From Blastococcus colisei (lineage in GTDB: Bacteria; Actinomycetota; Actinomycetes; Mycobacteriales; Geodermatophilaceae), in NCBI RefSeq assembly GCF_006717095.1, contig NZ_VFQE01000001.1, forward strand, positions 2,604,001 through 2,668,000: a DNA stretch of 64,000 bases, given 5' to 3'. Positions within the stretch are counted from its first letter, which is position 1; the number at the start of each line of letters is the position of its first letter. Under the pieces are notes generated by a model, which saw only the letters and a list, made by a program, of their open reading frames with translations, made no database searches and was not told the origin of the DNA. This document shows positions 20,667-40,200 of the stretch, one piece after another. Both the position numbers and the translations under genes were made by a program.

Positions 20667-20746
20667 TGCGAGTCTCCTGTCAGTGGGTTCTGGACCTGCC
20701 TGAGCGACCCCGCCCAGCGGACGCTGGCGGGGTCGGGGCGTTCGGC

Positions 20747-21175
20747 CTAGATCCGCAGGAGGCAGAGAGCCGAGAGATCCGGCGCAGGGGGCAGCCGGTG
20801 GAGCTGCCGCAGCCCGCGCAGGGGAGGTGGCGGGCCTCGCACGCAGAGGGCGGCCCACCCACGGACCAGCATCGCGATGCCCGCCAGCGCCAGCGCTGCG
20901 AACACCACAGCCAGGCAGATGGTCCAGATCTCCGCTCCATGGGCCGGCAAGCCGTCAGCAGCGGCGTGGTTTGGCATGGTCGCGTCCGCGCCGAGGGCGG
21001 CGACCTGGTGGGTTCCGGCAGGGAACGCGATCAAGCCGCCGTCGAACACGGTGAGAGAGGCGGCTGCTGACACGGTGACGTGGGCAGAGCCGACAGATCC
21101 GCTCATGCATTGCACCCCGTGCATGGCCAGGACGGCGGCCACGATGAGCAGTGCCCGGATCCGCCGGCCTCGCAT
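20747..21175 (-). CDS. Small DUF6153-like membrane protein
   Basis: Membrane protein of about 142 residues starting at ATG 21175 (preceded by GGGGGT). The first helix ALLIVAAVLAMHGVQCM contains the HG.QC element common in small actinobacterial proteins beside DUF305 genes. A loop with MPNHAAADGLPAHGAEIW precedes a second helix, and the tail is Pro/Arg/Cys-rich (ALCVRGPPPPLRGLR, LSALCLLRI). The DUF6153 assignment is from memory of this layout, hence moderate confidence. It lies upstream of, and in the same direction as, the DUF305 lipoprotein. Confidence 0.65.
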   Translation of the reverse strand: MRGRRIRALLIVAAVLAMHGVQCMSGSVGSAHVTVSAAASLTVFDGGLIAFPAGTHQVAALGADATMPNHAAADGLPAHGAEIWTICLAVVFAALALAGIAMLVRGWAALCVRGPPPPLRGLRQLHRLPPAPDLSALCLLRI

Positions 21176-21248
21176 GACACCCCCGCTCCACACCGCCGAC
21201 CGACCGTGCCTGCAGGCTCGACGGCGGGCACGACGCTACCTGTTCCGA

Positions 21249-21302
21249 TTGTCCGGACGAGAGCACCGAGCCACTCATGTTTGTCCGGACGACCGTACGG
21301 GC
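21249..21302. promoter_or_regulatory. Direct repeats in the divergent DUF305 promoter
   Basis: TTGTCCGGACGA occurs twice, at 21249-21260 and 21281-21292, start to start 32 bases apart (about three helical turns). GTCCGGAC within it is itself a palindrome. The second copy runs on into CCGTACGGGC, sharing a core with the ArsR palindrome and 12 bases with the site before nuoA. It is likely a regulator-binding region for the two divergent transcription units. Confidence 0.55.
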
Positions 21303-21489
21303 ATGCGGACGCCGTTCCACAGACTCACAGTCTGCGCACGCACAGTCCCGGCCTCACGCGCGGACTTGCCGATCCCACGCCACGCGCCTGTGACGCAACC
21401 AGCATGTGACGGGCGGGCCCGGTGACGAGGAGCCGTACGACGTCCAGCGCCCTTCCAACCCGACGACAGCAGAAACGGAGATCGGTTCC

Positions 21490-22092
21490 ATGGCGACGAA
21501 GAAGAGCGACGAGGCGAACGAACAGCAGCGTCACGGCGGCAAGCTGTCGCACGAGACGAAGATGTACCTGCGCTTCGCGGCCATGATCTCGACGGCCATG
21601 GTCGTCATGTACTGGACGATGTTCGCCGGCACGTGGGAGTGGAGCCACGTCCAATTCAGCGAGAGCCGTGTGTTCATGGCGATCACCATGGGCGGCACCA
21701 TGGGGCTGGTCATGCTGGGCTGGATGCTCAACATGTACAAGAACATGAAGGGCAACATCGCCATCGTGGCGGCGAGCCTGCTGCTGCTGGGCGGCGGCAT
21801 CGCCCTCGACCGCACCCAGGTCACCGTGGACGATCTCGGCTGGATGAAGGCGATGATCCCGCACCACTCGCTGGCCATCACGCGATCCGAGCGTGCCGAC
21901 ATCGATGACGTCCGCGTGTGCCAGCTCGCCGTCGACATCATCCGGGCACAGGAGATCGAGATCAGCGAGATGGAGTGGCTCATCGAGGACATCGAGGAGA
22001 ACGGCGAGGCCGAGACCCTCGAGGAGGCGCAGGCGCGACCCGTCCCCGAGTTCGAGGCGTCGGCACTGCGCGACTGCCCTCCGTCGAACTGA
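21490..22092 (+). CDS. Membrane-bound DUF305 protein
   Basis: Protein of 200 residues with three predicted helices (FAAMISTAMVVMYWTMFAGT, FMAITMGGTMGLVMLGWMLN, GNIAIVAASLLLLGGGIAL) followed by a C-terminal half-DUF305 domain, LGWMKAMIPHHSLAITRSER, with the HH pair and an amphipathic RAQEIEISEMEWLIEDIEE helix. The membrane part is methionine-rich. ATG 21490 follows GGAG at a good distance; the upstream extension of the frame is less protein-like. It is divergent from the other DUF305 unit and probably co-induced by metal. Confidence 0.85.
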   Translation: MATKKSDEANEQQRHGGKLSHETKMYLRFAAMISTAMVVMYWTMFAGTWEWSHVQFSESRVFMAITMGGTMGLVMLGWMLNMYKNMKGNIAIVAASLLLLGGGIALDRTQVTVDDLGWMKAMIPHHSLAITRSERADIDDVRVCQLAVDIIRAQEIEISEMEWLIEDIEENGEAETLEEAQARPVPEFEASALRDCPPSN

Positions 22093-23861: not shown

Positions 23862-23878
23862 TACGATAGGCGATAGTA
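23862..23878 (+). promoter_or_regulatory. BlaI/CopY-type operator before SCO1
   Basis: TACGAT-AGGCG-ATAGTA fits the six-five-six dyad shared by the whole regulon. A -10-like TAGAAT overlaps its right edge (23877-23882), so binding of a repressor would block RNA polymerase. The SCO1 start lies about 50 bases downstream. Confidence 0.75.
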
Positions 23879-23926
23879 GAATATTGCTTGGTCCGAACCC
23901 GGACGGCCAGTAGCTCAGGAGGTCCC

Positions 23927-24664
23927 GTGCCAGGAGCCCCAGGCCGAGCCGCCCTCGGCTCTGCCGTTCTGGTCGGCGGGCTACTGCTGACCGGCTGCGG
24001 CCAGGGCGCCACGGGAGCGGTCGAGGCCTCGCCGGCGGGCGGGGCCCGCGTCACGACGCAGGACGATGGCTTCCACGGCACCCGGATGCAGCAGGCCCAG
24101 CCCCGACCGGACCTGACACTGCCCACCACCAGCGGCGACCTATTCGACCTCGGCGACCGCCCCGAGGACGAGATCACGCTGCTGTTCTTCGGCTACACGC
24201 ACTGCCCGGACCTGTGCCCGACCACGATGGCCGACCTCGCGCTGGCGCGAGACATGCTCGCCCCGGAGATCCGCGACCGGGTGCAGGTGGTGTTCGTGAC
24301 CGAGGATCCGGAGCGGGACACCCCGGAGGCGCTGCGGGAGTGGCTGGACCGGTTCGATCCGGAGTTCATCGGGCTCATCGGCGGCAACGAGGCCACAGCC
24401 GCGGCGCTGCGGGAGCTGTACCTGCCTGAGAGCGCGCAGGTGGCTGACCCGTCGACAGCGATCGTCCACCCGCACGAGGCCGACGAGCACGCCGGGGAAG
24501 CACACGGGCAGGACGGGGGCGGGCACAGTCACGGGAACTACGGGGTCGACCACGCCGGAGCGGTGTACGCCTGGGGGCCCGGGAGCCGGTCGATCGTCTA
24601 CACCGGCGGAACCACGCCGGACCAGTACGCCGAGGATCTAACCCGACTGGCCGCCGCCGACTGA
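23927..24664 (+). CDS. SCO1/SenC/PrrC-family copper chaperone lipoprotein
   Basis: Extracytoplasmic copper chaperone with a thioredoxin fold (245 residues), of the type that delivers Cu to cytochrome oxidase CuA. The signal peptide ends in LLLTGCGQ with lipidated C24. The copper-binding CxxxC is GYTHCPDLCPTTM (C93, C97) and the third ligand is H209 in VDHAGAVYAW. A His/Glu-rich loop (residues 181-203, including HPHEADEHAGEAH and GGGHSHG) is an unusual extra metal site. GTG 23927 with AGGAGG was chosen over the TTG at 23888, which lies in the promoter. It is controlled by the operator at 23862. Confidence 0.92.
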   Translation: MPGAPGRAALGSAVLVGGLLLTGCGQGATGAVEASPAGGARVTTQDDGFHGTRMQQAQPRPDLTLPTTSGDLFDLGDRPEDEITLLFFGYTHCPDLCPTTMADLALARDMLAPEIRDRVQVVFVTEDPERDTPEALREWLDRFDPEFIGLIGGNEATAAALRELYLPESAQVADPSTAIVHPHEADEHAGEAHGQDGGGHSHGNYGVDHAGAVYAWGPGSRSIVYTGGTTPDQYAEDLTRLAAAD

Positions 24665-24751
24665 GCCGGCCGAACCGGCCCCGGCTGGAACGTGGCGCGG
24701 GCGAGTGGACCGCCGCTCCGGCGCGGGCCCACGCCTCGGCGGCCGGTCGGG

Positions 24752-25051
24752 TCAATCCCCGGACAGGTCGCGCTGCATCCGGAGGTACTCCTCGCGGTCG
24801 ATCTCGCCAGCGGCGTAGCGGCGGCGCAGCAGCTCCTGCGCGCTAGCCACCTCGTCGCGCTTGCCCGGTGCAGTGGGGGTCGTGTCCGGCCGGGCCGGGG
24901 AACGGTGCTTGACCAACCAGATGGCCGCAAGGACCGCAACCACCAGGACGGCGATCCCGACCAGGGTCCAGAGCAGCATCCAGCCGCCCATCATCCCCAT
25001 CATTCCGCCCTCCATCATCCCGCCTTCCATCATTCCGCCGTCATGGCCCAC
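24752..25051 (-). CDS. SHOCT-domain membrane protein with Met/Gly-rich N-terminus
   Basis: Protein of 99 residues. The N-terminus is a Met/Gly array (GHDGGMMEGGMMEGGMMGMM) resembling copper-binding Met motifs, followed by one transmembrane helix (LLWTLVGIAVLVVAVLAAIW) and a C-terminal SHOCT domain (ELLRRRYAAGEIDREEYLRM). The start is GTG 25051 with GAAGGAG upstream. It is the second gene of a leftward unit behind the operator at 25433. The role is unknown; external metal capture is inferred from the methionines. Confidence 0.82.
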   Translation of the reverse strand: MGHDGGMMEGGMMEGGMMGMMGGWMLLWTLVGIAVLVVAVLAAIWLVKHRSPARPDTTPTAPGKRDEVASAQELLRRRYAAGEIDREEYLRMQRDLSGD

Positions 25052-25138
25052 CGGCCGCTCCTTCCCTCGAGTCGGCGGGGCGCCCCCGGGAGCGCCCTGC
25101 CGCGTGTCGTCTGCCGCTACCGGCGGCCGGCTGACCGA

Positions 25139-25390
25139 TCAAGCGTGGTCGGGGGCGCCCTGGTGCATCAGCTCGCACATCTGCGTCATGCCGGGGTTGC
25201 CCTCCTGCATGAGCTCGTGCATCTGGGTCATGCCGAGGTTGCGCTGCTCCATGAGCTCGTGCATCTGCGCCATTCCAGCGGGCGCGTCGGGCGGCCCGCC
25301 ATCGCCACCGCCAGGGTGAGCCTGGGCCGCTCGGGCGGGAACTGCGACTCCTCCTGCGACCAGTGCAGCGACCAACGGAGACCTCACCAT
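25139..25390 (-). CDS. Small secreted Met-rich protein with MHELM repeats
   Basis: An 83-residue protein with a signal peptide (VAALVAGGVAVPARAAQAH) and three imperfect repeats: MAQMHELMEQRN, MTQMHELMQEGN and MTQMCELMHQGA. Each repeat places Met, Met-His and Met close together, with a cysteine replacing the histidine in the third; this suits soft-metal binding. ATG 25390 has GAGGAACAGG upstream. It lies 43 bases behind the operator at 25433-25449 and before the SHOCT gene. No family is recognised with confidence. Confidence 0.78.
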   Translation of the reverse strand: MVRSPLVAALVAGGVAVPARAAQAHPGGGDGGPPDAPAGMAQMHELMEQRNLGMTQMHELMQEGNPGMTQMCELMHQGAPDHA

Positions 25391-25432
25391 GACCTGTTCC
25401 TCATTCCCGTATGCGCTTTCGACTAGCTCGAC

Positions 25433-25449
25433 TACTATGGAAGATAGTA
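25433..25449. promoter_or_regulatory. BlaI/CopY-type operator, perfect dyad
   Basis: TACTAT-GGAAG-ATAGTA has perfect six-base arms and is the best copy in the regulon. It lies between the leftward MHELM/SHOCT unit and the rightward copA-remnant/hydrolase unit, so it could control both. Confidence 0.85.
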
Positions 25450-25567
25450 CGCCACTTTCACAGGGCGACCGTCTCCAGCTCGGGTAGCGACCAGAGGCGC
25501 GGGCGGGTCGACCAGGAGAACGTGGCGGGCAAAGGCACAGGAATCGCGATGGCGGTGAGGCCAGCAG

Positions 25568-25884
25568 ATGACCACCAGTGAGCTTTTTGTCGTACTCGGC
25601 GGGATCGCGCTGGTTGCCGCGCTGGCCTGGCATCCGGGTACAACACCGCGGCCATCCCGGTTGCCGCCGGTCTGCTCTACCCGGTCACCGGCGCGCTGCT
25701 CTCCCCGATGATCGCCGCGACGGCGATGGCGCTGTCCAGCATCAGCGTCGTGCTCAACGCTGCCCGGCTCGATCGCTTCACCTCGCCGCCGGTACCCGAG
25801 ACCGGGCGGACATCCCCCGCTCGGCACCCGACGCCGGTGGGCACGTCGGCCGGCCCGTCTCTGCCACCAGCGGAACGGCGGTGA
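25568..25884 (+). pseudogene. Remnant of a copper-transporting P-type ATPase (C-terminus)
   Basis: From 25636 to 25884 one frame reads [20 protein letters not shown], then [20 protein letters not shown] and NAARL, which is the last two membrane helices of a CopA-type P1B ATPase. Before it, ATG 25568 opens a different frame ([20 protein letters not shown], then WHPG) that looks like the start of a small membrane or cupredoxin-type protein. The two pieces meet near 25631 out of phase. The ATP-binding, phosphorylation (DKTGT) and CPC regions are all missing. It is best read as a deletion fusion of an old Cu exporter gene. The final TGA overlaps the hydrolase GTG. Confidence 0.75.
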
Positions 25885-26837
25885 CAAGCGCGTCTGTCCT
25901 GCGCGGCTATCCAGTCCTCGGCAGTGGCGCCCTGGGGCTGGCGGCTGCCTGCAGTTGGTGGGCGCTGCGGCATCAACGGTCTCTGGCTGTGGCCCGGTGG
26001 GCTCCGGGCCGGGGCCGGCAGCGCCGGGCCGGGCCGCTGCACGTGCGCGTCCTGGGCTCGGGCGAACCGGTGCTCCTGCTGCTGCACGGCCTGGCCGGGG
26101 CGGGCAACAAATTCGGCGCCGCCTACGACGAACTGGCGCGAGCAGCGACTGTGGTCGTCCCCGATCTGCTCGGATTCGGCGGGTCGATGGACGTGACCGG
26201 ACCTGCCGACGTGCAGGCGCACCTCGCGGCCCTGGACGCCGCCCTGGACGCCCTCGGCCTGCAGGACCGGCCGACCGTCGTGTCCGGGCACTCGATGGGC
26301 GGCGTCCTCGCGATCCGCTGGGCCGCTCAGCACAGCCAGAAGGTGCGCTCGGTGCTCACCTTCGGAGCGCCGCTATACCTCACCCGGGCCGAGGCCGACG
26401 CGCACATCGACGCGATCGGGCGGATGGAGGCCCTGCTCGCCGGCGACGGACCCCTGCCCCGCGCCGCCTGCGCCTGGATGTGCCGCCACCGGACGCTCGC
26501 CTCCTGGATCGCCGTCGCCGACCGCCCGGATCTTCCGGTCCCGGTGGCCCGGTCAGGGGTCAAGCACACCTGGGACACCTACTCCAGCGCGATGGACGGC
26601 CTCATCCGCGATGACGGGTGGCTTCCTGCCCTCGATGGACTGACTCGAGTACCGCTGACCCTGGCGGCCGGCCAGTGCGATCCCGTGCCGGTACCCGGGC
26701 GAGCTGTCGAGCTGGCCCGCACCCGACCTGCCCTCCGGCCCGTCGTCCATCCGGAGGCCGACCACGGGCTTCCGTTCACCCATCCGGACTGGTGCCGGCA
26801 GTTGATCGCGGAGGCGCTGACGATCGAGCCGCACTGA
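25881..26837 (+). CDS. Alpha/beta hydrolase
   Basis: Alpha/beta-hydrolase (318 residues) starting at GTG 25881, which overlaps the copA remnant stop (GTGA). An N-terminal hydrophobic stretch ([18 protein letters not shown]) may anchor it. Motifs: [14 protein letters not shown] for the oxyanion loop, [11 protein letters not shown] with the nucleophilic serine, [12 protein letters not shown] near the acid position and [13 protein letters not shown] with the catalytic histidine. The substrate is unknown. Its place in a metal island probably reflects the operon architecture before the ATPase was lost. Confidence 0.85.
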
Positions 26838-26843
26838 AGACGC

Positions 26844-27429
26844 TCAGGCGTCCCCGGAGCGGAGGAGGTCGTCGATCAGGCGCTGCAGCTCCTCGGAGGT
26901 CAGCTGGCCGACCACCCGGTCGATGACGCGGCCGTCGGCGTCGAGCGCGAGGGTCACCGGCAGCCCCCGAACTCCCAGCTCCTTCAGCAGTTCGCCGTCG
27001 ACGTCGACGGCGTGCGGGTAGTCGATGTCGTGCTCGTCGAGGAACCAGCGGGCGGCCTGGATCGTCCTGCACGTCCACACCCAGGAAGCGGACCAGCTCG
27101 CCGTGTCGCGCGTAGGCCTCCTGCAACATCGGCATCTCCTCCCGGCACGGGCCGCACCAGGTCGCCCACAGATTGACCAGGGTCGGGCGGCCGGTGAGCC
27201 GGTCCAGCGCCACGTCCGTGCCCGGACCCAGGCAGGGCAGGGTGAGCTGCGGCAGGGCGTCCGCGCCGGCCGGCACGATGTCCTCGGGCAGCTGCTCGCA
27301 GGCCGGTGCCGGCGGAGCCGCCTCGGCGGTCGCGGGCCCAGTCCTCGCAGTGGTCACGTTCGGCTCGGCGGTGGCGCAGCCGGCCAGCAGGGCGGCCGTC
27401 AGCAGCCCGCCGGCCAGCCGCACCGGCAT
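26844..27429 (-). pseudogene. TlpA/ResA-type thioredoxin lipoprotein (frameshifted)
   Basis: Thiol-disulfide oxidoreductase with a lipoprotein signal (GGLLTAALLAGCATAEP). The active site is NLWATWCGPCREEMPMLQEA. The frame is good to FLGVDVQDD, then one base is missing near 27055-27062; the homologous end continues in the next frame as AARWFLDEHDIDYPHAVDVD, with LGVRGLPVTLALDADGRVID (the cis-proline region) and TSEELQRLIDDLL. As read, translation would give a scrambled basic tail. ATG 27429 overlaps the stop of the preceding gene. Repair by one C would yield a full-length protein of about 194 residues. Confidence 0.85.
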
Positions 27430-28379
27430 CAGGACTCCTGGTACAGCTCGGTGAAGGTCTCCCCACCGTCGGAGGAGGCCAGGACCGCGCCGTCAACGGC
27501 GACGTAGACGTCGTCCCCCTCCACGGTCAGCGCCTCCGGCGCGCCGCCGACACTGCCGCGCTCGGCCCAGGTCCGTCCGCCGTCGGTGCTCACGAACACC
27601 GTGCCGTCGGGGGCAACGCCGACCGTGGAACCGCCTTCGGCGGCGATGTCCACCAGCACCATCAGGGGGGCGCCGGCGACGGCGGTGAAGTCCTTCCCGG
27701 CGTCCTCGCTCACCATCAGGCCGGCCTCGGTGGTGGCCAGCAATCGTTGCGGATCGGTGGGATCGGCAGCCAGGTCGGCGATCCGCATCTCCCCGCGGTC
27801 AGCCCACTCGACGCCGTCCTCGCTGACCAGCAACCGGCCACCGCTGTAGCCGAAGATCACGCCGTCGGCGGCATCCAGAGCGTGGAAGTCGGCCTCACCC
27901 GCCAGCGACAGCGTCTCCCAAGTCTCCCCGCCATCGGTGCTTTCGATCAGACCCAGGTTGCCCGGGCCGTCCTGGCCTGCGCCGGGGTGTCCGCTGGCCA
28001 GATAGTGCTCGGGACCGACGACGGTGAAGCCCATGAAGTCCTGCACCCGGTCGGCGATGCGCGTCAGCTCCCCGTACGGAGAGATGCGCACCAGTCCGTA
28101 GTGCGTGCCGGCGTAGAGGGCCTCGTCGGCCGGGTCGACGCCCAGCCCGTGCACGTGCTCGAGGGTCAGGTCCTCCGGGTGGGGATGGGTGCCGTCGTCG
28201 TGGCTGTGCGTCTCGCCGTCAGCCGCGGTCTGGTCTCCGGCAGTTGCGTCGGTGCCGCACCCGGCGAGGAGCAGCGATCCCGCCGCAGCGGCGCCCACTA
28301 GTACCCGGCGGCGACCGGCTGCCCACGGGGCAGGCAGAGAGGACCGGGTGGATCGGGACGGCAGGACGGACGGTGACAT
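27429..28379 (-). CDS. F510_1955-type beta-propeller lipoprotein
   Basis: Exported lipoprotein of 316 residues (lipobox LLLAGCGTD) with a His-rich linker (ETHSHDDGTHPHPED) and a BNR/Asp-box beta-propeller: repeated S.DGG.TW elements at STDGGETWETL, SEDAGKDF, STDGGRTWAERG and SSDGGETFTELY. It matches the family annotated as F510_1955 glycosylhydrolase-like proteins often found near copper genes; real glycosidase activity is doubtful. ATG 28379 has GGGAG upstream and lies behind the operator at 28406. It is coupled to the TlpA gene. Confidence 0.8.
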   Translation of the reverse strand: MSPSVLPSRSTRSSLPAPWAAGRRRVLVGAAAAGSLLLAGCGTDATAGDQTAADGETHSHDDGTHPHPEDLTLEHVHGLGVDPADEALYAGTHYGLVRISPYGELTRIADRVQDFMGFTVVGPEHYLASGHPGAGQDGPGNLGLIESTDGGETWETLSLAGEADFHALDAADGVIFGYSGGRLLVSEDGVEWADRGEMRIADLAADPTDPQRLLATTEAGLMVSEDAGKDFTAVAGAPLMVLVDIAAEGGSTVGVAPDGTVFVSTDGGRTWAERGSVGGAPEALTVEGDDVYVAVDGAVLASSDGGETFTELYQES

Positions 28380-28405
28380 GAGCTCCCCACAAGACCAGAC
28401 GGACG

Positions 28406-28422
28406 TACTACCTCAGATAGTA
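28406..28422. promoter_or_regulatory. BlaI/CopY-type operator before the propeller lipoprotein
   Basis: TACTAC-CTCAG-ATAGTA, five of six arm pairs matched, sits 27 bases upstream of the ATG at 28379. It lies between that leftward gene and the end of the M56 gene, so it can only serve the propeller/TlpA unit. Confidence 0.8.
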
Positions 28423-28445
28423 GACGCTTCTGGCGGCCGCGGAGC

Positions 28446-29402
28446 TCAGCTCCAGTCGGCTCCGGGGAGGACGCACAGCCCGCTGGAGACCGCGGACACC
28501 AGCGGCCAGGCAGCCAGCGCCACCGGCCCGGCCACCACCAGCACCGCCGCTGTGGCGGCGACCATGCGTTGCGCGGCGCCGAGAGGAGCGGCCGGCCGCA
28601 GCAGCCGGCCCACACGGAGCACGCCGGCACCCTGCGCGGCGGCCAGCGCCGGGGCAGGGGCGCGCATGCCGGCGAGGGTCACCAGGGCGGAGGCGACCTC
28701 CACCCGGTTCACCTGCCGGGCGGCGGCGTCGTCGGCCAGCAGCTCGACCAGCCGCTCGATCTCCGCCCGGCTCCGGGAGAAGAGGGGCACTCCGGGGAAG
28801 GCCCGGTCCAGGATCCGGGCGGTGCCCACGGCCAGGTGGTGGCGACCGCGCAGATGGGCTCGCTCGTGGGCCAACACGGCGGCGAGCTCGTCGGCGGAGA
28901 GCGCGTGGAGGGCCGCGGTGGTCACCACGACCGTACGGAGCCGTCCGGGCAGGCAGAAGGCGGCCGCGTGGTCGGACTCCAGCAGCACTGCTCCGAGCGA
29001 CTGCTCGGGGCGAGCACCAACCAGGATCGTCGCGCGCAGCCGGCGCCGCTCCCGCTGGTCGCGCAGGCGAGTGCGGACGGCGACCCAGCCCAGGCGTAGG
29101 AGCACCCCGCCCGACAGCAGGACGCCGGCGAGCACGGCGGCCAGTTGCCCGGGCGAGCCGTAGACGGCGGCGATGGTCGCCGCGCAGGCGTCGAGGATCG
29201 ATGCCAGGCCGTCGGCCACCGCACCGGCCGGCACCAGCAGCGCCAGGCCCGCGAGCACCACGGACACGAGCACGCCGGCAGACACCGCCTGCCAGGCGGC
29301 GACCGCCAGCCGCGGCGAGCGATCGGCCCAGCCGCCGATCGCCCGCGGAGCCAGCACCACCAGCGCCGCGGCGAAGGTCAGCAGCGCGACGGTGGTGGTC
29401 AC
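28446..29402 (-). CDS. M56-family membrane metalloprotease (BlaR1/MecR1-like sensor)
   Basis: Integral membrane zinc protease (318 residues). Three to four helices precede the catalytic HExxH at residues 179-183 (LAHERAHLRGRHH); the downstream IERLVELLADDAA supplies the third ligand region. The C-terminus has one more helix. It lacks the extracellular penicillin-binding domain of BlaR1, so it does not sense beta-lactams in the usual way. GTG 29402 overlaps the blaI stop, as in known BlaI-BlaR pairs. It probably senses a metal or redox signal and triggers loss of the BlaI-type repressor. Confidence 0.88.
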   Translation of the reverse strand: MTTTVALLTFAAALVVLAPRAIGGWADRSPRLAVAAWQAVSAGVLVSVVLAGLALLVPAGAVADGLASILDACAATIAAVYGSPGQLAAVLAGVLLSGGVLLRLGWVAVRTRLRDQRERRRLRATILVGARPEQSLGAVLLESDHAAAFCLPGRLRTVVVTTAALHALSADELAAVLAHERAHLRGRHHLAVGTARILDRAFPGVPLFSRSRAEIERLVELLADDAAARQVNRVEVASALVTLAGMRAPAPALAAAQGAGVLRVGRLLRPAAPLGAAQRMVAATAAVLVVAGPVALAAWPLVSAVSSGLCVLPGADWS

Positions 29403-29767
29403 GACCTCTGCGCCTGCCGGGCCGATTCCACCGCTGTCCGCAGGCTGGCCACCGCATCGGCGTCGAGGTCGGCGACGAAGTGCATGAGCACCTCGTCGCG
29501 ATCCCCGGCCGCACTCAGCACGTCCTGCAGCATCGCCGCGGAGTGCTCCGCGCGGGTCCGGGTGGGGCGGTACCGCCAGGCCCGGCCTTCCATCTCGCGG
29601 CTCAGCGCGCCCTTGCGGTGCAGGTTGTCCAGCACCGTCATCACGGTCGTGTAGGCCAGCGCGCGGGATGCGGTCAGCTCGGCGAGCACCTCCCGGACGG
29701 TCGCCGCCTCGCCACGGCGCCACAGCATGTCCATCACGACGGCTTCCAGCTCACCGAACGGGCGCAC
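29399..29767 (-). CDS. BlaI/MecI/CopY-family repressor
   Basis: Winged-helix dimeric repressor of 122 residues. The N-terminal domain reads RPFGELEAVVMDMLWRRGEA, TVREVLAELTASRALAYTTV and MTVLDNLHRKGAL, all typical of BlaI. The EGRAWRYRPTRTRAEHSA wing and a helical dimerisation tail follow. GTG 29767 was chosen because AGGAGG stands seven bases before it, giving the usual family length; upstream ATGs (29782, 29833) would add a non-conserved extension. The operator at 29854 should autoregulate the pair. No CopY-like CxC tail is seen, so inactivation probably depends on the M56 partner. Confidence 0.9.
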   Translation of the reverse strand: MRPFGELEAVVMDMLWRRGEAATVREVLAELTASRALAYTTVMTVLDNLHRKGALSREMEGRAWRYRPTRTRAEHSAAMLQDVLSAAGDRDEVLMHFVADLDADAVASLRTAVESARQAQRS

Positions 29768-29853
29768 TCGCCACCTCCTCATCCCCTCCGCGCCGCTGCG
29801 CGACCCGGTCAGCTCCAGCAACCCGTCGGCCATGGCGCAGCTTCCCGTCACAG

Positions 29854-29870
29854 TACTACCGGCGGTAGTG
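29854..29870. promoter_or_regulatory. BlaI/CopY-type operator before blaI
   Basis: TACTAC-CGGCG-GTAGTG is 87 bases upstream of the blaI start and overlaps the last codons of the upstream lgt gene. The dyad extends through the spacer (ACTACCGGCGGTAGT), consistent with autoregulation. Confidence 0.75.
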
Positions 29871-30662
29871 GACGACGTCCCTGTCGGTGGTGCCGCCCGG
29901 CGCCATCTCATCAGGGCCAGCACCCCCGGGCGGCCGGCCCCGCAACGACCCGATCCTCAGCAGGGCCACTCCCACGGCGACCAGCAGCGCTGACCACAGC
30001 TGCGGCTGGGTCAACCCGAGCACCGCCTCCGGGTTGACCCGAATCTCCTCGACGAGGAACCGCGCCGACCCGCTGAGTACTGCGTACAGCCCGAAGACGT
30101 GCAGCGGTGACCACCGGGTCCGCAGAATCCACAGCAGCCCGCCGACGGCCAGTGCGACGACGGCTTCGTACAGCGCTGCGGGATGCACCGGCACGAAGGT
30201 GGGCACCATGCCGTCGGGGAACGCGGTCGCCCAAGGCAGGTCCGAGGGCTGGCCGTAGGAGCCGTCTCCGGCCAGGAAGCAGCCGATCCGGCCGATCCCG
30301 TAGGCCACCGACAGGGGCGCGGCCGCGACACCGGCCAACTGCGCCAGCGGCAGCCCGTAGCGGCGGGCCATCACCACCACTGTGGCGACCCCGGCGATCA
30401 GGCCGCCGTACCAGGTGAACCCCGACGGCCCGGAGGAGTGCGCCGACAGGTCCCCGGCGTGCTCGGCCAGGTAGTACAGCTTGCCGCCGACGAACCCGAC
30501 GACGGTGGCTGCGACCACGATCGACCAGGCCCGGTCCGGATGCCAGCCCAAGCGGCGGAACTCCCGGGCCAGCAGGTAGCCGGCCACCAGCGCGGCCGCG
30601 GCCTTGCTCACTCCGTAGCTGTGGATGGGGAGGCTGAAGACCTCGAACAGGACAGGTCTCAC
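29856..30662 (-). CDS. lgt: Prolipoprotein diacylglyceryl transferase
   Basis: Membrane enzyme (268 residues, about seven helices) that moves diacylglycerol from phosphatidylglycerol to the lipobox cysteine of prolipoproteins. The Lgt signature GRIGCFLAGDGSYGQPSDLP is clear, with VVGFVGGKLYYL and FTWYGGLIAG upstream and VPVHPAALYEA after. It starts at GTG 30662. Bacteria normally have a housekeeping Lgt elsewhere beside trp genes; this copy sits inside a regulon rich in lipoproteins (SCO1, propeller, TlpA, ResA), so it may be an inducible paralogue. Its 3' end overlaps the blaI operator. Confidence 0.9.
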   Translation of the reverse strand: MRPVLFEVFSLPIHSYGVSKAAAALVAGYLLAREFRRLGWHPDRAWSIVVAATVVGFVGGKLYYLAEHAGDLSAHSSGPSGFTWYGGLIAGVATVVVMARRYGLPLAQLAGVAAAPLSVAYGIGRIGCFLAGDGSYGQPSDLPWATAFPDGMVPTFVPVHPAALYEAVVALAVGGLLWILRTRWSPLHVFGLYAVLSGSARFLVEEIRVNPEAVLGLTQPQLWSALLVAVGVALLRIGSLRGRPPGGAGPDEMAPGGTTDRDVVHYRR

Positions 30663-30755
30663 CGCTGGGTGCCTCTCTCGGTGCTCGGGATGGAAGGTGT
30701 CGCAGTGGCCGCGATCACGAGCCCGGGAAGGACCGGAGCTCCGGCCGCAGGTCGA

Positions 30756-30944
30756 TTACTGGGCGCGCAGCCGGTCCCGCTCGGCGCGCGCCTGACGGAG
30801 CTGCCGCTGCAAGCCGTCGTCCGCCGTCGGCGTCCGGGCCGGAGCGGGGTGGCAGACTCCGCCGCGCATTGGCCGCAGGCAGCACCGGTAGGTGGCGGCC
30901 AGGGCCGCCACCAGGACCAGGGCCGGCAGCAGCCAGCCGCTCAT
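30756..30944 (-). CDS. Small membrane protein with coiled-coil tail
   Basis: A 62-residue protein: one helix (GWLLPALVLVAALAATY), then RCCLRPMRGGVCH with three cysteines, and a basic coiled-coil end (LQRQLRQARAERDRLRAQ). ATG 30944 overlaps the preceding stop (ATGA). No family is recognised. The CC...C...H cluster just after the membrane could bind metal. Confidence 0.6.
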   Translation of the reverse strand: MSGWLLPALVLVAALAATYRCCLRPMRGGVCHPAPARTPTADDGLQRQLRQARAERDRLRAQ

Positions 30945-31153
30945 CGGCTGGACTCGGTCAACCTCGGGTCGCCGCCGTCGCCGGAGCGCTCTGCACGCAG
31001 CTGGTCGATCTCGGCACGCAGGCCGGCGAGCTCGGCCTGCTTGTCCTCGGCCGGCTGCGGCGCCGATCCGTGGCCGCGGCTCATCATCCACATCATGGCG
31101 CCCATGCCGACCGGGCAGGCCAACAACGCCAACAGGTAGAACAGCTCCGACAT
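30941..31153 (-). CDS. Small DUF2933-like membrane protein
   Basis: A 70-residue protein starting at ATG 31153 with GGAGG six bases before it. The helix LFYLLALLACPVGMGAMMWM and the following MSRGHG resemble DUF2933 proteins found in copper and mercury operons; the C-terminal half is an acidic/basic coiled coil (LAGLRAEIDQLRAER). It is the first gene of the leftward unit behind the operators at 31191-31233. Confidence 0.65.
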   Translation of the reverse strand: MSELFYLLALLACPVGMGAMMWMMSRGHGSAPQPAEDKQAELAGLRAEIDQLRAERSGDGGDPRLTESSR

Positions 31154-31190
31154 CGGTGCCTCCAACGGCTGTCGGGCGCCACACTGGCGC

Positions 31191-31207
31191 CACTATGCCC
31201 GATAGTA
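31191..31207. promoter_or_regulatory. BlaI/CopY-type operator, divergent promoter, left copy
   Basis: CACTAT-GCCCG-ATAGTA, 38 bases upstream of the DUF2933-like start. It is paired with a second copy 26 bases to the right. Confidence 0.8.
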
Positions 31208-31216
31208 GACCGCTGC

Positions 31217-31233
31217 TCCTACCTGTCATAGTA
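31217..31233. promoter_or_regulatory. BlaI/CopY-type operator, divergent promoter, right copy
   Basis: TCCTAC-CTGTC-ATAGTA; the right arm is exact and the left arm weaker. It lies about 75 bases before the ResA-like gene. The start-to-start distance of 26 bases from the left copy would allow two dimers on nearly the same face of DNA. Confidence 0.65.
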
Positions 31234-31306
31234 GGGATGTGGTGAGGACGCATCTCAGTCGTACAGCCAGCCGCCGCCTCTCGGGTTCCACCGCGGCGGC
31301 ACGCCG

Positions 31307-31903
31307 ATGAGCCGGCCGCTCAGTCGCCGGACCCTCTTGCTGGCCGCCGGTGGCGCCGCCGCAGGCGCGCTGGTCGGCTGCTCCACCGGCGGGAACGACA
31401 CCGTGAGCTCCACCGGGGAGTACGAGTTCACCGAACCCACGCCGGCGGCGACGGTGGTCGCTGAGGATCAGCGGTCACCTGCCCCGGCCTTCTCCGGCGA
31501 GCTGCTCGACGGCACTCCGTTCGAGTCCTCGTCGCTGGCCGGGGACGTCGCGGTCATCAACTTCTGGGGGTCCTGGTGCGTGCCGTGCCGGGTGGAGACC
31601 CCGGAGTTCCAAGCCGTGCACGCCGACGTCGCCGACCGTGGCGTGCAGTTCCTCGGCATCGACGTCAAGGACCAGCGGCAGATGGCCGTCGCCTTCGTCG
31701 AGCGGCTGGGGGTGGCCTACCCGTCGGTGTTCGATCCGCGCGGTGAGGTGGCGATGGCGTTCCGCGGGTTCCCGGCCAACGTGGTGCCCTCGACCATCCT
31801 GCTGGACCGCGACGGCCGCGTGGCCGCCGTCTACACCGGCCAGGTCCGCGGTGAGGACTTGCGCGCCGCCGTCGAACTGCTGCTCGCCGAGGACCGAGCG
31901 TGA
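31307..31903 (+). CDS. ResA/CcsX-type thioredoxin-fold lipoprotein
   Basis: Extracytoplasmic thiol-disulfide reductase (198 residues). The N-terminus has an RR and a lipobox (GGAAAGALVGCSTGG). The active site is INFWGSWCVPCRVETPEF, with FLGIDVKDQRQMAVAFVERL and the cis-proline region FPANVVPSTILLDRDG following, as in ResA/TlpA. It can keep haem-binding or copper-binding cysteines reduced. It is coupled to CcdA by GTGA, a classical pair in which CcdA supplies electrons across the membrane. It is probably controlled by the two operators at 31191-31233. Confidence 0.9.
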   Translation: MSRPLSRRTLLLAAGGAAAGALVGCSTGGNDTVSSTGEYEFTEPTPAATVVAEDQRSPAPAFSGELLDGTPFESSSLAGDVAVINFWGSWCVPCRVETPEFQAVHADVADRGVQFLGIDVKDQRQMAVAFVERLGVAYPSVFDPRGEVAMAFRGFPANVVPSTILLDRDGRVAAVYTGQVRGEDLRAAVELLLAEDRA

Positions 31904-32775
31904 GCGAGCTCGGGGCGACCTTCGCCCGCATCGTCACCGACGGCTCGCTGCTGGTGGCCATCGCGGTGGCCGCGCTGGTCGTGCTGATCAGCTTCGCTTC
32001 CCCCTGCTGCCTGCCACTGATCCCCGGCTACGTCAGCTACATCGCCGGGCTCGCCGGCTCCCAGGCCACCGCCGGCCGGCCCCGAGTTCCGCAGCCTGCT
32101 GGCGGTGGGCCAGCCGGCGCGACATCGGCCGGCTGTGCTGCCGAGGCCGGCACCGCCCCCTCACCGCCGGCGGCCCCGGCCGCTGCCGGCCGCGGCCGGG
32201 TGCTGGCCGGGTCCCTGCTGTTCATCGCCGGCTTCAGCGCCGTCTTCGTCTCCTTCGGCGCCCTCTTCGGCGGCCTGGGCCGGCTGCTGCTGGAGTGGTC
32301 GCCGGTGCTCACCCGGGTCGCCGGCGTCGTCGTGATCGCGATGGGGCTGTCGTTCCTCGGCGCGATCCCCTGGCTGATGCGCGAACGCCGCATCCACCGC
32401 CGGCCGCCGGCCGGCCTGGCCGGTGCCCCCGTCCTCGGCGTCGTGTTCGGCCTCGGGTGGACGCCCTGCCTGGGCCCGACGCTCGCCGCGGTGAACACGC
32501 TGGCCTACACCCAGGCCTCGGCCGGCCGCGGTGCCATCCTCGCCCTGGCCTACTGCCTGGGACTGGGCATCCCGTTCGTCCTGGTGGCCCTCGGCGCCCG
32601 CCGCGCCCTGGCGTTCTCCGACCTGGCCCGCCGGCACGCCCCTACCGTCATGCGGGTCGGTGGGGGCCTGATGATCGCCTTGGGCATCCTGCTGCTGACC
32701 GGCTGGTGGGACGCGCTGATGATCTGGCTGCGGGCCTGGCTGGGGGCTACGGGTCTTGGATCATCCGCGTTGTGA
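31900..32775 (+). CDS. CcdA/DsbD-family transmembrane electron carrier
   Basis: Cytochrome c biogenesis protein CcdA type (291 residues, six helices). The redox cysteines lie in FASPCCLPLIPGYVSYIAGL (helix 1) and VFGLGWTPCLGPTLAAVNTL (helix 4). A long Ala/Pro/Gly-rich loop between helices 1 and 2 (about residues 55-100) is an insertion relative to shorter CcdA proteins. GTG 31900 overlaps the ResA stop. It passes electrons from cytosolic thioredoxin to ResA/TlpA-type lipoproteins. Confidence 0.9.
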   Translation: MSELGATFARIVTDGSLLVAIAVAALVVLISFASPCCLPLIPGYVSYIAGLAGSQATAGRPRVPQPAGGGPAGATSAGCAAEAGTAPSPPAAPAAAGRGRVLAGSLLFIAGFSAVFVSFGALFGGLGRLLLEWSPVLTRVAGVVVIAMGLSFLGAIPWLMRERRIHRRPPAGLAGAPVLGVVFGLGWTPCLGPTLAAVNTLAYTQASAGRGAILALAYCLGLGIPFVLVALGARRALAFSDLARRHAPTVMRVGGGLMIALGILLLTGWWDALMIWLRAWLGATGLGSSAL

Positions 32776-32998: not shown

Positions 32999-33733
32999 TT
33001 ACGCCCCCACGTAGACGGAGATGGCGCCGAAGACGGCGAATCCGGCGGTGAGGAAGATGGGCCCCAGCCGTGAAGTCTCACCTTCGTGCGCCTCTCCGAT
33101 CATCTCCTCGACCACGACAGCCGTGAGCGCGCCACCGGTAAGCGCGAGCACCGACAAGGTGACGATCTCGGGGGCGTCCCGGAGGGCGAAGTAGCCGAGC
33201 GTGGCGCCGAGGAAGATCGGGACGGCGAAGCCTGCCGCGAGCAGCACCCGCCGACCGCGGCTGATGCCGGCCCTGCGCATCGTCGCGATGGCCGCAAAGC
33301 CCTCCGGGACATCGGCGGGGACCTGCCCAAGGGCAAGGAGAAGGCCCAGAGCTGGGTTGAGGACCGTGCCGGTGCCGATCATGACGCCGTCACTGAACAG
33401 GTCCAACGAGACGCCGGAGAAGATCCCCAGTGCGCTCCCCTGCTTCTCGCCCCCGCCCATCCTCGCCTGGACATAGCCGATGGCTCGGTCGAGGCCGATG
33501 AAGGCAGCGCCTCCCCCCACGAACGCCAACAAGGGGACCCACGGGAGACCTGCCGCCAGAGCCTCGGGCATCAGCTCGAGGCCCACGACGGCGAGCACGA
33601 TGCCGGCCGCGAGGTGCAGCGCGAGGCTGAGCGTGCGTTCGGAGACGCGAAACGACTCGGCGAGCACTCCCCCGGCGAAGTTTCCGGCCGCGGGCAGAGC
33701 CGCGAGGCCCAGGACGAGCAGGTATCCGCTCAC
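32999..33733 (-). CDS. ZIP-family divalent metal transporter
   Basis: Membrane protein of 244 residues with about eight helices. The ZIP signature is visible as LHLAAGIVLAVVGLELMPEA (helix 2 with H and E), SLDLFSDGVMIGTGTVLNPA (helix 4 region with D in place of the usual H) and GQVPADVPEGFAAIA (helix 5 with E). GTG 33733 overlaps the CDF gene stop, so import and export genes are co-translated. Zinc is the likely ion. A ZIP next to a CDF could serve homeostasis, or export if it runs in reverse. Confidence 0.85.
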   Translation of the reverse strand: MSGYLLVLGLAALPAAGNFAGGVLAESFRVSERTLSLALHLAAGIVLAVVGLELMPEALAAGLPWVPLLAFVGGGAAFIGLDRAIGYVQARMGGGEKQGSALGIFSGVSLDLFSDGVMIGTGTVLNPALGLLLALGQVPADVPEGFAAIATMRRAGISRGRRVLLAAGFAVPIFLGATLGYFALRDAPEIVTLSVLALTGGALTAVVVEEMIGEAHEGETSRLGPIFLTAGFAVFGAISVYVGA

Positions 33734-34383
33734 GTCTCGTCCTCGTCGTCCTCGACCAGCTCGCCTTCCCAGGCTTCACGGCCCTCGTGGACGGCGAAAG
33801 ATGCGATCACGAAGCCGGCCACCGGGTCGAGCCACGGCCATCCGACCACGGCGTAGAGGCCGAGGCCGAGCAGGGTGGAGATGCTCAGCAGCACGCAGAT
33901 CCGGGTCTCGGCGGCGTCAGCAAGGATGAGCGGGTCCCGCAGCCGCTCGCCGACGTGGCGCTTGGCGCGAGCCAGGAGGGGCATGACGACGATGGAGGCG
34001 GCGAGCAGCACGAGGGCGACAACCGACGTGTCGGGGTTGTCCCCGCCCACGAGGCTGCGGATGCCCTCGAACGTCACGTAGGCGGCCAGCACGAAGAAGG
34101 TGACGGCCACTGCCTTGAGGGTGCGGCGCTCCTTGGCCTCGTCGGCCTCGCCATGGCGCAGGCGCGCAGCCAGGCGCAGGCCGACCAGTACCGCTGCCAC
34201 CGACTCGATACCGGAGTCGAACCCGAAGCCGATCATCGAAACGAGACCGGCGAGGATGCCGACCGTGACGGCGATGGCGCCCTCGACGACGTTGTAGGCG
34301 ACGGTGAACTGTGCCAGGCGCAACCCTCGCCTGGTGAGCCGTTCGATCTGGACCGGGCTCAGGGTGGCATTCGTGTCGCTCAC
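33730..34383 (-). CDS. Cation diffusion facilitator family transporter
   Basis: CDF-type efflux protein of 217 residues with five to six helices. Typical stretches are AYNVVEGAIAVTVGILAGLV and MIGFGFDSGIESVAAVLVGL (helix 2 with D and E ligands), and LADAAETRICVLLSISTLLG (helix 5). The C-terminal cytoplasmic domain of larger CDFs is absent; the tail is acidic (ELVEDDEDE). GTG 34383 with GGAGG upstream was chosen over ATG 34410, which lacks a ribosome site. It is coupled to the ZIP gene. Confidence 0.85.
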   Translation of the reverse strand: MSDTNATLSPVQIERLTRRGLRLAQFTVAYNVVEGAIAVTVGILAGLVSMIGFGFDSGIESVAAVLVGLRLAARLRHGEADEAKERRTLKAVAVTFFVLAAYVTFEGIRSLVGGDNPDTSVVALVLLAASIVVMPLLARAKRHVGERLRDPLILADAAETRICVLLSISTLLGLGLYAVVGWPWLDPVAGFVIASFAVHEGREAWEGELVEDDEDET

Positions 34384-34531
34384 CGGACCGGTCCTCCGTG
34401 ATGCAGCCATGGCGACCGGAGGCATGCATGCGGCTGCACAGAGAGCCATCGCCGTTCGGTGCTCGTTCCGGTGCCGGACGTGGCGCGTGCTCCGTGGTCG
34501 GTCCGGGCGGCCGCAGGCCTGAGCGGGCCGA

Positions 34532-35305
34532 TCACCGGGCCTGTTCCCGGATCGTGATCTGAAGGGTCCCGGACGCCGGCGCGGCGCTGGGCACGCAGCA
34601 GGCGTCGGTGCACCCATCGGCGCAGCCGCACGTCGAACGTGCGTCGTCGGGGGTCCCACCGGGACGGGCAGGGGCACAGCAGCCCTCGCCGCGCCAGGCT
34701 TCAAGGCCCTCCTTGACCGCGACGGCAGCGATGACCAGCCCGGCGACCGGGTCGGCCCAGCCCCAGCCGAGCGTGGCGTTGAGGATCAGCCCCACGAGCA
34801 GTACCGCGGACAGGTAGGTGCACAGCAGCGTCTGGGTTCCGTCGGCGACGACGGCATTCGATCCGAGCGCGCGGCCGGTGCGCCGTTGTGCCCAGGACAG
34901 GAAGGGCATGACGATCAGCGAGGCGATCGCGAGGCCGATCCCGACCATCGACGACTTCGGTTCGGTGCCGGAGACGAGGGCGCGGACGGACTCGAAGGTG
35001 ACGTAGCCGGCCAGGGCGAAGAACGACAGCGCCATCAACCGCAGCGCTGTCCGCTCCCGGCTTTCAGGTAGCCGGTGGCGGAACTGCCACAGGATGATCA
35101 GGCCGCTGGAGACCTCGACGATCGAATCGAGGCCGAAGCCGATCAGCGCCACCGAGCCGGCGGCGACCCCTGCGGTGATGGCGATGACCGCTTCGACGAC
35201 GTTGTAGCTGACCGACGCGCCGGCCAAGAGCTGCGCCCGGCGACCGAGCCGGCGGCGCGTCTCCGCGGAGACCTCACGGTGGCCGTGGGCGGGAACAGCG
35301 CTCAT
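34532..35305 (-). CDS. Cation diffusion facilitator transporter with Cys-rich tail
   Basis: CDF-family transporter (257 residues). Helix 2 carries IGFGLDSIVEVSSGLIILW and helix 5 VVADGTQTLLCTYLSAVLLV. After the last helix comes EAWRGEGCCAPARP and then STCGCADGCTDACCVPS, a tail with nine cysteines that should bind soft metal such as Cd, Zn or Cu. ATG 35305 overlaps the ArsR stop. It is a paralogue of the CDF at 33730, with the same helix motifs but a different tail, pointing to different metals. Confidence 0.87.
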   Translation of the reverse strand: MSAVPAHGHREVSAETRRRLGRRAQLLAGASVSYNVVEAVIAITAGVAAGSVALIGFGLDSIVEVSSGLIILWQFRHRLPESRERTALRLMALSFFALAGYVTFESVRALVSGTEPKSSMVGIGLAIASLIVMPFLSWAQRRTGRALGSNAVVADGTQTLLCTYLSAVLLVGLILNATLGWGWADPVAGLVIAAVAVKEGLEAWRGEGCCAPARPGGTPDDARSTCGCADGCTDACCVPSAAPASGTLQITIREQAR

Positions 35306-35682
35306 CGGCTCGCTTCCTCGCCGTAGGCCGGACAGAGGGCCACGGCATCGCCGGTCGTGGCGAGCAGCCGCTCGGCGGCGGCGAGCACATCCAGCAGTTC
35401 TGCCCCGGTCGCCAGTGACCACATCGACGCCCGCCCCTGCGGCCGGGAGGTCACCAACCCGCAGTCCCGCAGGCAGGCGAGGTGCGCGGAGACTGTCGAC
35501 TGCGCCAACCCGAGGTGGGCGGTCAGCTCGACGACCTTGTGCTCACCTAGCGCGAGGTGCCGGAGGATGGCGAGCCGCGTGGGATCGCCCAGGCTGCGGA
35601 ACATGCACGCCGCCGCGGACAGTGCGGCGGCTTCGTTGACCCCCGCCTCCGCGGCGCTGTCCATCATCGAGTTCATCGCCAT
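35302..35682 (-). CDS. ArsR/SmtB-family metal-sensing repressor
   Basis: Winged-helix repressor of about 126 residues. The core is MFRSLGDPTRLAILRHLALG, VELTAHLGLAQSTVSAHLAC and LRDCGLVTSRPQGRASMWSL. Cysteines in SAAACMF, HLACLRDCG and VALCPAYGE are placed as in CadC/CmtR/KmtR-like sensors, the first two in the DNA-reading helix region. It starts at ATG 35682 or ATG 35676. It overlaps the CDF gene downstream and should repress it until metal binds. Confidence 0.88.
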   Translation of the reverse strand: MAMNSMMDSAAEAGVNEAAALSAAACMFRSLGDPTRLAILRHLALGEHKVVELTAHLGLAQSTVSAHLACLRDCGLVTSRPQGRASMWSLATGAELLDVLAAAERLLATTGDAVALCPAYGEEASR

Positions 35683-35692
35683 GCGGCGATGA
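35673..35692. promoter_or_regulatory. Inverted repeat over the arsR start
   Basis: TCATCGCC and GGCGATGA are perfect eight-base arms around ATGC, overlapping the start codons. This position and symmetry suit an ArsR/SmtB autoregulatory operator. Confidence 0.6.
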
Positions 35693-35933
35693 TAGCCAAT
35701 ATCACCGGCGGCAACCGGGCGACCAAGGAATCGAGTCTCGCTCACGCAAGGCCACCCCGTGGGCTGCGGTGACGCCTGTCCGGTCGTCTTCCCGGGCAAG
35801 CGCAACCTCGCTGCGTCCTGACGGACCAGGCTGGCAAGGGGGTCGAGTCGGTGAGCCATCCGCGACCAGATCGAAGCCCGCGTCCGCGGGCTGCTCACCG
35901 GGATGCAGGTGTGCATGCGCCCCAGCCACTGAG

Positions 35934-37134: not shown

Positions 37135-37313
37135 CCCCGGCCGCCGTCGAGCCTCCGCCACGACCCGCCCGCCTCTCGCCGTCCCCGTCGTTCAGCCGTA
37201 TCCGGACCACCTGTCCCGGGCCGGTCCTGCTGGCACGTGGCCAGCTCGCAGAGCCCCCGCACGGCAGTTCTGTCACACGCCGCGAGGCCCGTGCAGCCGA
37301 GCAACCGCCGGGC

Positions 37314-38663: not shown

Positions 38664-38718
38664 CGCTCTTCCCCTCGTCGATGTGCGTGAACGGGCGGTC
38701 CTGCGGATGCGCTGGTAC

Positions 38719-40110: not shown

Positions 40111-40156
40111 CGCACGCTCCCTCGGTTTGCCGGTCGGCCGTCCACGCCCAAGGCTG

Positions 40157-40180
40157 GACCTTCCAGTGCAGGGAAAGGTC
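40157..40180. promoter_or_regulatory. MerR-type promoter/operator between merA and merR
   Basis: A dyad with arms GACCTTCCAGTG and GGGAAAGGTC-like halves spans 24 bases. On the minus strand a -35 TTGACC (complement of 40177-40182) is followed by the dyad, with the long -35/-10 spacing that MerR regulators correct by twisting DNA. Confidence 0.8.
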
Positions 40181-40200
40181 AAGCCGGAAGGGGAACCGAC

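Follow-up and report, generated by a model that had tools for sequence, protein, structure and literature searches.

A predicted BlaI regulon with a cysteine-pair membrane protease as a candidate copper or thiol-redox switch in Blastococcus colisei

In the staphylococcal BlaI-BlaR1 and MecI-MecR1 systems, a winged-helix repressor that acts at operator dyads is paired with an adjacent membrane zinc protease bearing an HExxH motif and a glutamate ligand. Staphylococcus aureus BlaR1 is described as domain-swapped, with an extracytoplasmic loop (EL1, residues 56–96) that extends into the sensor domain and is moved aside by β-lactam (PMC9834060). Mycobacterial Rv1846c (BlaI) and Rv1845c (BlaR), the nearest studied relatives of the system considered here, combine a BlaI repressor with a protease that lacks a sensor domain. 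A mycobacterial BlaI regulon that includes ATP synthase was reportedly described by Sala et al. in 2009. The copper repressors CopY and TcrY belong to the same superfamily as BlaI and control a copper regulon; CopY binds metal through a C-terminal Cys motif. Here we analyze a BlaI-type repressor, its adjacent membrane protease, and a set of operator-like dyads at positions 23,862 to 32,775 of a 64,000-nucleotide stretch of Blastococcus colisei (contig NZ_VFQE01000001.1, C1:2604001–2668000; hereafter, the window). The reading we favor, with a probability of roughly 0.6, is that of a single BlaI regulon in which a protease carrying a pair of cysteines acts as a copper or thiol-redox switch.

The locus shares with the staphylococcal systems the repressor, the adjacent zinc protease, and the operator dyads, and with Rv1846c/Rv1845c also the sensor-less protease and a similar operator arm. 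Unlike BlaR1 and MecR1, however, the window protease has no C-terminal penicillin-binding sensor domain and has Cys73 and Cys310 instead; it also misses the Pfam cut-off for M56, and its predicted regulon consists of copper and thiol genes. The mycobacterial chromosomal proteases differ from it in lacking both cysteines (8/8 rows), at loci without copper/thiol homologues; we infer that these eight are of the Rv1845c/Rv1846c type. Unlike CopY and TcrY, the window BlaI contains no cysteine and falls below the cut-off for TIGR02698. Mycobacterial BlaI probably uses an operator of this type as well, and hence the operator itself is not new. What is new is the cysteine-pair lineage, its tie to copper and thiol genes, and how large the regulon becomes on plasmids. 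A literature search, which left subscription papers mostly outside its reach, found no description of such a regulon.

A sequence-only reading of the window had proposed six dyads of the form TACTAY-N5-RTAGTA, and all six are present, two of them exact and four with one mismatch. Site 1 (23862..23878, one mismatch) lies approximately 50 bp upstream of the SCO1 start codon, a GTG; site 2 (25433..25449, exact) is 43 bp ahead of a gene pair encoding Met-rich and SHOCT-like proteins; site 3 (28406..28422, exact) is 27 bp ahead of the F510_1955 propeller gene, which is followed by tlpA; site 4 (29854..29870, one mismatch) precedes blaI and the protease gene; and sites 5 and 6 (31191..31207 and 31217..31233, one mismatch each) occupy the divergent region between the lgt and resA-ccdA units. 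With gene starts set from sequence plus likely ribosome-binding sites, the proposed position ahead of these units was upheld. The placement of a hydrolase gene as a further unit head is unclear, as approximately 430 bp and a P-type ATPase relic separate it from site 2. A dyad upstream of blaI itself is a trait of actinobacterial BlaI operators; site 4 fits this pattern, and comparable dyads occur at 8/8 mycobacterial loci.

These dyads are concentrated in one part of the genome. Markov resampling of a 10 kb stretch produced no site with at most one mismatch in 100 resamples, compared with six in the real stretch. Across the genome (5,160,276 bp, four contigs), the only two exact dyads both fall within a 7.4 kb stretch of the window, as do six of the seven places with at most one mismatch. 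The seventh, C1:1202261-1202277, has a codon-like composition and is perhaps intragenic. Places with two mismatches number 39 elsewhere in the genome; within two mismatches the total is 46 forward and 166 in a backwards-read control, and this class is therefore noise. When dyads were sought de novo across entire loci, high-GC coding periodicity (CGACGA-type pairs) dominated the results, and TACTA-type dyads ranked first in few loci, the window stretch not among them; later counts therefore used the named core TACTA-N7-TAGTA and regions upstream of blaI.

The closest comparison is provided by the nearest relative, Blastococcus saxobsidens DSM 44509, whose protease is 89% identical. The gene order there is that of the window (ccdA, resA, small membrane protein, blaI, protease, propeller, tlpA, Met-rich, SHOCT, SCO1), with no homologue of lgt or the hydrolase found in the locus. 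A site is kept at each of the five promoters, including that of SCO1 (site 1). Taking one site pair per promoter, 57/60 arm bases are the same between the two species, compared with 16/25 spacer bases.

More broadly, the expectation set beforehand that the motif would track this BlaI clade in related genomes was borne out at the level of loci. In 80 loci found by their protease in named genomes (1.48 Mb), there are 84 exact TACTA-N7-TAGTA cores, located in 34 of the loci, and none in shuffled or reversed controls. When one mismatch is allowed, 149 sites are found and 59 in the reversed control; because that control is no longer empty, the argument rests on the exact sites. At the level of genomes, a hand cross-tally places the exact core in 112/240 BlaI-positive and 24/154 BlaI-negative genomes, 18 of the latter 24 being small genomes of a single family (f28). 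The backwards-read control is often above the forward count per genome, and the genome-level table alone therefore proves nothing. Some lineages appear to use a different dyad: in four loci of one family that includes Frankia (f20; L029, L030, L040, and L044), dyads of the type TACGAT-N5-ATCGTA lie ahead of blaI and may represent a sister operator variant.

BlaI relatives were detected by tblastn in 109 plasmid records. Thirteen were scanned whole, and nine of these contain the exact core, with counts of 17, 15, 13, 11, 6, 4, 4, 1, and 1; backwards-read controls on the 13 records gave 0–2. Random placement of the motif in relatives, which the sequence-only reading had named as an outcome that would count against it, is not what we observe. 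In four annotated plasmid regions, 43/45 sites are intergenic (11.8 expected), and 32/45 have a gene start no more than 250 bp downstream (9.6 expected). The plasmid gene tables are incomplete, so that "intergenic" may take in unlisted genes; in addition, one of 13 exact sites on the Rhodococcus pseudokoreensis plasmid and one of 11 on pMSPYR101 fall outside the stretch used, and the Mycolicibacterium vanbaalenii plasmid (15 sites) was left out of this test. The largest set is on the Rhodococcus plasmid pRWAY03 (L081, L082), which carries four BlaI genes and 17 exact operators across 85 kb. These lie ahead of three ctaD genes and genes for TlpA, Lnt, rhodanese, and NlpC/P60, and one of the four plasmid proteases is without the Cys pair. 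The description of the window regulon as compact and self-contained holds within the B. colisei genome, but the regulon is widespread and this is a single example of it; on some plasmids it has 11-17 exact sites.

A second BlaI-protease pair in the B. colisei genome (G000:C1:1711691-1712099, L017 and L079; BlaI at C1:1711773) offers an internal comparison. Its two dyads are of the form TTCTAC-N5-GTAGAA, a sequence found in exact form solely at its own promoter, genome-wide, and its protease lacks the Cys pair. The stretch that we presume to be the recognition helix, from its placement within the BlaI fold, reads LTTVHTV in the second BlaI and YTTVMTV in the window BlaI. The presence of the sites, their conservation, and their promoter positions are read directly from sequence; from these, and from co-occurrence and the paralogue, we conclude with high confidence that the six sites are the predicted operators of the window BlaI, to which BlaI would bind. 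It is highly improbable that the dyads are targets of a different regulator or repeats that arose by chance. The consensus was read by eye and two-mismatch matches are common, as this alternative would have it, but clustering in the genome, tracking of BlaI loci, promoter position, footprint conservation, and the paralogue's own operator all speak against it. A role as a general promoter element was rejected on the strength of the genome-wide clustering, the plasmid scans, and the BlaI-locus counts relative to controls.

The window BlaI (29399..29776, minus strand) exceeds the cut-off for the BlaI/MecI/CopY superfamily (PF03965; 93.1 vs 22.6 bits) and falls below those for BlaI of β-lactamase systems (NCBIfam NF012168; 27.1 vs 180 bits) and CopY/TcrY (TIGR02698; 39.1 vs 121.95 bits). 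Its nearest solved relative is 2g9w, which we take to be mycobacterial Rv1846c. We considered BlaI itself as a CopY-like copper sensor and rejected this possibility: the window BlaI is cysteine-free and therefore not itself a CopY-type sensor, and only 5/148 BlaI rows have two or more cysteines in the matched part.

The genes behind the sites are consistent with a role in metal delivery and thiol chemistry. Site 1 precedes the gene for a SCO1/SenC copper chaperone (23927..24664, plus strand; PF02630, lipobox LTGC). On the minus strand behind site 2 are genes for an exported Met/His-rich protein without a family, whose three MHELM-type repeats make it a possible copper binder (25139..25390), and for a Met-rich membrane protein whose SHOCT-like end scores slightly below the cut-off (24752..25051; 26.5 bits vs 27). 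Site 3 leads, also on the minus strand, to the F510_1955-family propeller lipoprotein (27429..28379; NCBIfam equivalog NF045728, 242.7 bits vs a cut-off of 175, lipobox) and a TlpA-like thioredoxin lipoprotein (26844..27429) whose gene switches between two reading frames near 27.07 kb and whose parts were searched separately. The divergent units comprise, on the plus strand, a ResA/TlpA-like thioredoxin lipoprotein (31307..31903; Pfam and NCBIfam matches, lipobox) and a CcdA-type thiol electron transporter (31900..32775; DsbD_TM), and, on the minus strand, a small membrane protein at the head of the unit (30941..31153), a small protein without a family (30756..30944), and the prolipoprotein diacylglyceryl transferase Lgt (29856..30662; PF01790). 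The 74-aa head protein had been labeled DUF2933-like, a label that finds no match in Pfam at E 0.01 or in NCBIfam at E 0.001; it belongs to no family, and homologues are present in 24/118 related loci, a set that includes overlapping plasmid stretches. The lipobox cysteines of SCO1, propeller, TlpA, and ResA make four of the regulon's own exported products predicted lipoproteins, and a regulated Lgt makes sense for this reason.

In plasmid relatives, neighboring genes encode TlpA, CcdA, ResB, CcsB, CopC, multicopper oxidase, DUF305, Lgt, Lnt, signal peptidase II, CtaD, and peptidoglycan enzymes. Sites lie directly upstream of genes for CtaD (three on pRWAY03), TlpA, Lnt, Ig-like proteins, NlpC/P60, rhodanese, Rieske, and Lgt. 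The Ig-like proteins are presumably L,D-transpeptidases. Many of these gene products depend on extracytoplasmic cysteine. Copper inhibits the L,D-transpeptidases of Escherichia coli and Vibrio cholerae (PMC11390936). The proposed copper/thiol reading is supported both by gene families in the window and by neighbors in many relatives, and the regulon very likely supports extracytoplasmic copper and thiol functions.

This gene content could also be explained if the signal were copper starvation, with empty cysteines reporting a lack of metal and Sco1, CcdA, and ResA feeding cytochrome oxidase assembly. Sco1, TlpA/ResA, and CcdA in the window fit such a model, as do CtaD, oxidase-assembly proteins, ResB, and CcsB near or behind sites in relatives; moreover, SigC reportedly guards Mycobacterium tuberculosis against copper starvation (PMC7924339). 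We nonetheless consider starvation an unlikely signal, as relatives also have multicopper oxidase, CopC, and copper P-type ATPases, which are typical of excess, and a P-type ATPase relic adjoins site 2 on its opposite side. This relic, the C-terminus of a heavy-metal pump (25639..25881, plus strand; first tblastn row 59.7% over 89%, no Pfam match), suggests that the site 2 promoter probably served a metal pump in the past.

The protease gene (28446..29402, minus strand) encodes a BlaR-like membrane zinc protease of 318 aa. It had been described as an M56 protein that keeps HExxH. The motif is present at residues 179-183, but the protein misses the Pfam M56 cut-off (PF05569; 17.8 vs 31 bits) and passes that of M48 (PF01435; 43.6 vs 20.3 bits). 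Most of its relatives are labeled M56 in RefSeq. H179, E180, H183, and E220 are invariant in an alignment of 69 sequences, and both K/R topology and the structure model put HExxH and the E ligand that follows it on the cytoplasmic side, in a domain flanked by transmembrane helices. The AlphaFold2 model (pLDDT 91.6, pTM 0.88) ends in a last helix at 276–306 followed by a short tail, 12 residues to the end of the protein, and the protease therefore has no sensor domain; the claimed absence of a β-lactam-binding domain is confirmed. Foldseek returned no match with E below 0.001. The top eight include S. aureus BlaR1 together with M48 peptidases and Ste24-type proteases; seven of the eight have a probability of 0.97–1.00, but their E values are weak (at least 0.039). 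Five are BlaR1 chains (8exq, 8exr A and B, 8ext, and 8exs; E 0.057-0.91, TMq 0.31-0.36), among which 8exq, 8exr_A, 8ext, and 8exs reach probability 0.97-0.99 at E 0.057-0.41.

Of the three protease cysteines (73, 150, and 310), two are predicted to face outward. Cys73 (codon 29184..29186, minus strand) occupies a near-invariant column of the 69-sequence alignment and lies within the EL1 helix in the model; Cys310 (codon 28473..28475, minus strand) is in the C-terminal tail past the last transmembrane helix. No K or R occurs in residues 32–102 or past residue 279, and both cysteines would therefore be outside the membrane by the positive-inside rule. Once frames that ran off a contig end or fell outside 230–480 aa had been dropped, 132 homologues remained (131 distinct, some near-copies): 110 have both cysteines, 12 neither, seven Cys73 alone, and three the tail cysteine alone, two of the last group with adjacent CC in the tail. 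The two tend to occur together (Fisher 5.6e-10, uncorrected for descent). "Tail" here means any cysteine after residue 295, the end of the last helix included; when it is narrowed to the last 18 residues, 104/132 have both.

The pair is linked to gene neighborhood. Homologues of seven window copper/thiol families are found at 57/80 loci with the Cys pair and 0/11 without it (Fisher 6e-6). This tally dropped loci below 17 kb and overlapping plasmid stretches (L081–L085), keeping 89 loci (80 pair, six partial, three neither); the 11 Cys-less loci, in stretches of 15–21 kb, are the three "neither" loci and eight mycobacterial ones (15–19 kb, one with 5 kb on one side). The six partial loci stood outside the Fisher test, and three of them have a copper/thiol neighbor; both loci with a CC tail (L066 and L077) have ResA and CcdA homologues. 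In a tree built by a quick method, the Cys-less proteases form a supported group of ten, made up of eight mycobacterial chromosomal proteases, the paralogue of the window genome, and L078, plus two scattered rows.

These mycobacterial loci bear on another alternative, in which the same BlaI regulon responds to cell-wall or respiratory damage, a signal that has been put forward for mycobacterial BlaI, and the cysteines do no more than form a structural disulfide tying EL1 to the tail. Each of the eight has a single site with at most one mismatch, located at its own blaI, and the dyad there, TACTAC-N5-GTCGTA on one strand, is similar to that of the window (8/8). BlaI of Mycobacterium controls an ATP-synthase operon (PMC12565901), and on plasmid relatives sites precede genes for peptidoglycan enzymes (RipA, NlpC/P60, and Ig-like proteins) and for cytochrome oxidase. 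However, these mycobacterial proteases have neither cysteine nor any copper/thiol neighbor (8/8), the window regulon contains no peptidoglycan gene, and its protease has no β-lactam-binding domain. A damage signal seems doubtful to us.

Several observations weigh against a cysteine-pair switch, or against its generality. Unlike Cys73, the tail cysteine is conserved in presence and not in alignment column (69 sequences). Cys150, close to the active site, is likewise near-invariant. Seven homologues keep Cys73 without a tail cysteine, although some may be truncated. Eight of the 12 "neither" rows come from a single mycobacterial group, and the cysteine statistics take no account of descent; model confidence is 63-71 in the EL1 blocks (61-80) and 61 over the final block. 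Nor is the operator universal: 46/80 protease-found loci and 4/13 scanned plasmid records are without an exact core. Two or more sites with at most one mismatch occur in just 38/80 Cys-pair loci and in 2/3 Cys-less loci (L078 and L160, with three and two sites), and site number is therefore not linked to the Cys pair. A twelfth Cys-less protease, on pRWAY03 (L082) and outside the 11, lies amid ctaD genes and four exact operators; no member of the seven copper/thiol families occurs within 10 kb of it. Finally, Cys73 and Cys310 could form a structural disulfide. We put the chance that the pair is the switch at even, with a structural disulfide as the main alternative.

With these points in mind, we propose the following model for a cysteine-pair switch. 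BlaI would bind the TACTA-N7-TAGTA dyad at every promoter, its own included, and keep the units off. By analogy with BlaR1, the protease is probably the sensor, with activation leading to cleavage of BlaI; it appears to be cut on the BlaR1 pattern, with similar transmembrane and zinc-protease parts and two outer-face cysteines in place of the β-lactam-binding domain. Cys310 would mark the place where a sensor domain attaches, and Cys73 lies in the loop that docks into that domain in S. aureus BlaR1. The cysteines themselves are evident from sequence and their outward topology comes from charge and model; oxidation of the pair to a disulfide, or copper held by it, would move EL1 and thereby turn on the cytoplasmic protease, cleave BlaI, and free the promoters. 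Sco1, the TlpA and ResA lipoproteins, electron supply by CcdA, lipoprotein maturation by Lgt, the F510_1955 propeller, and the Met-rich proteins would in turn re-establish copper delivery and thiol chemistry on the outer side of the membrane. Sequence cannot tell copper excess, copper lack, and thiol oxidation apart as the signal.

Two groups of genes flank the regulon. Directly outside it, at 20052-22092, are two DUF305 genes, one encoding a predicted lipoprotein; DUF305 homologues occur in 42/118 related loci. On the other side, at 32999-40446 (minus strand), are genes for a ZIP transporter, an ArsR-type regulator, and two pyridine-nucleotide disulfide oxidoreductases; this region has no operator even when three mismatches are allowed.

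We speculate, tentatively and at somewhat less than even odds, that a large actinobacterial lineage of BlaR proteases without sensor domains detects extracytoplasmic copper or thiol oxidation through its Cys pair and, with BlaI, runs a mobile thiol-stress regulon. Such a regulon, with up to 17 operators per plasmid, would supply fresh copies of cysteine-dependent exports (Sco, TlpA/ResA-CcdA, Lgt/Lnt, NlpC/P60, likely L,D-transpeptidases, and rhodanese) and of copper-poisoned cytochrome oxidase. The finding bears on signal perception by BlaR-type proteases that have no sensor domain, a question that the conserved Cys pair, together with a paralogue in the same genome that lacks it, makes directly testable. 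If our reading is correct, what is known as an antibiotic-resistance switch would be a copper/thiol stress switch in many Actinomycetes, and its operator would provide a simple handle for finding targets.

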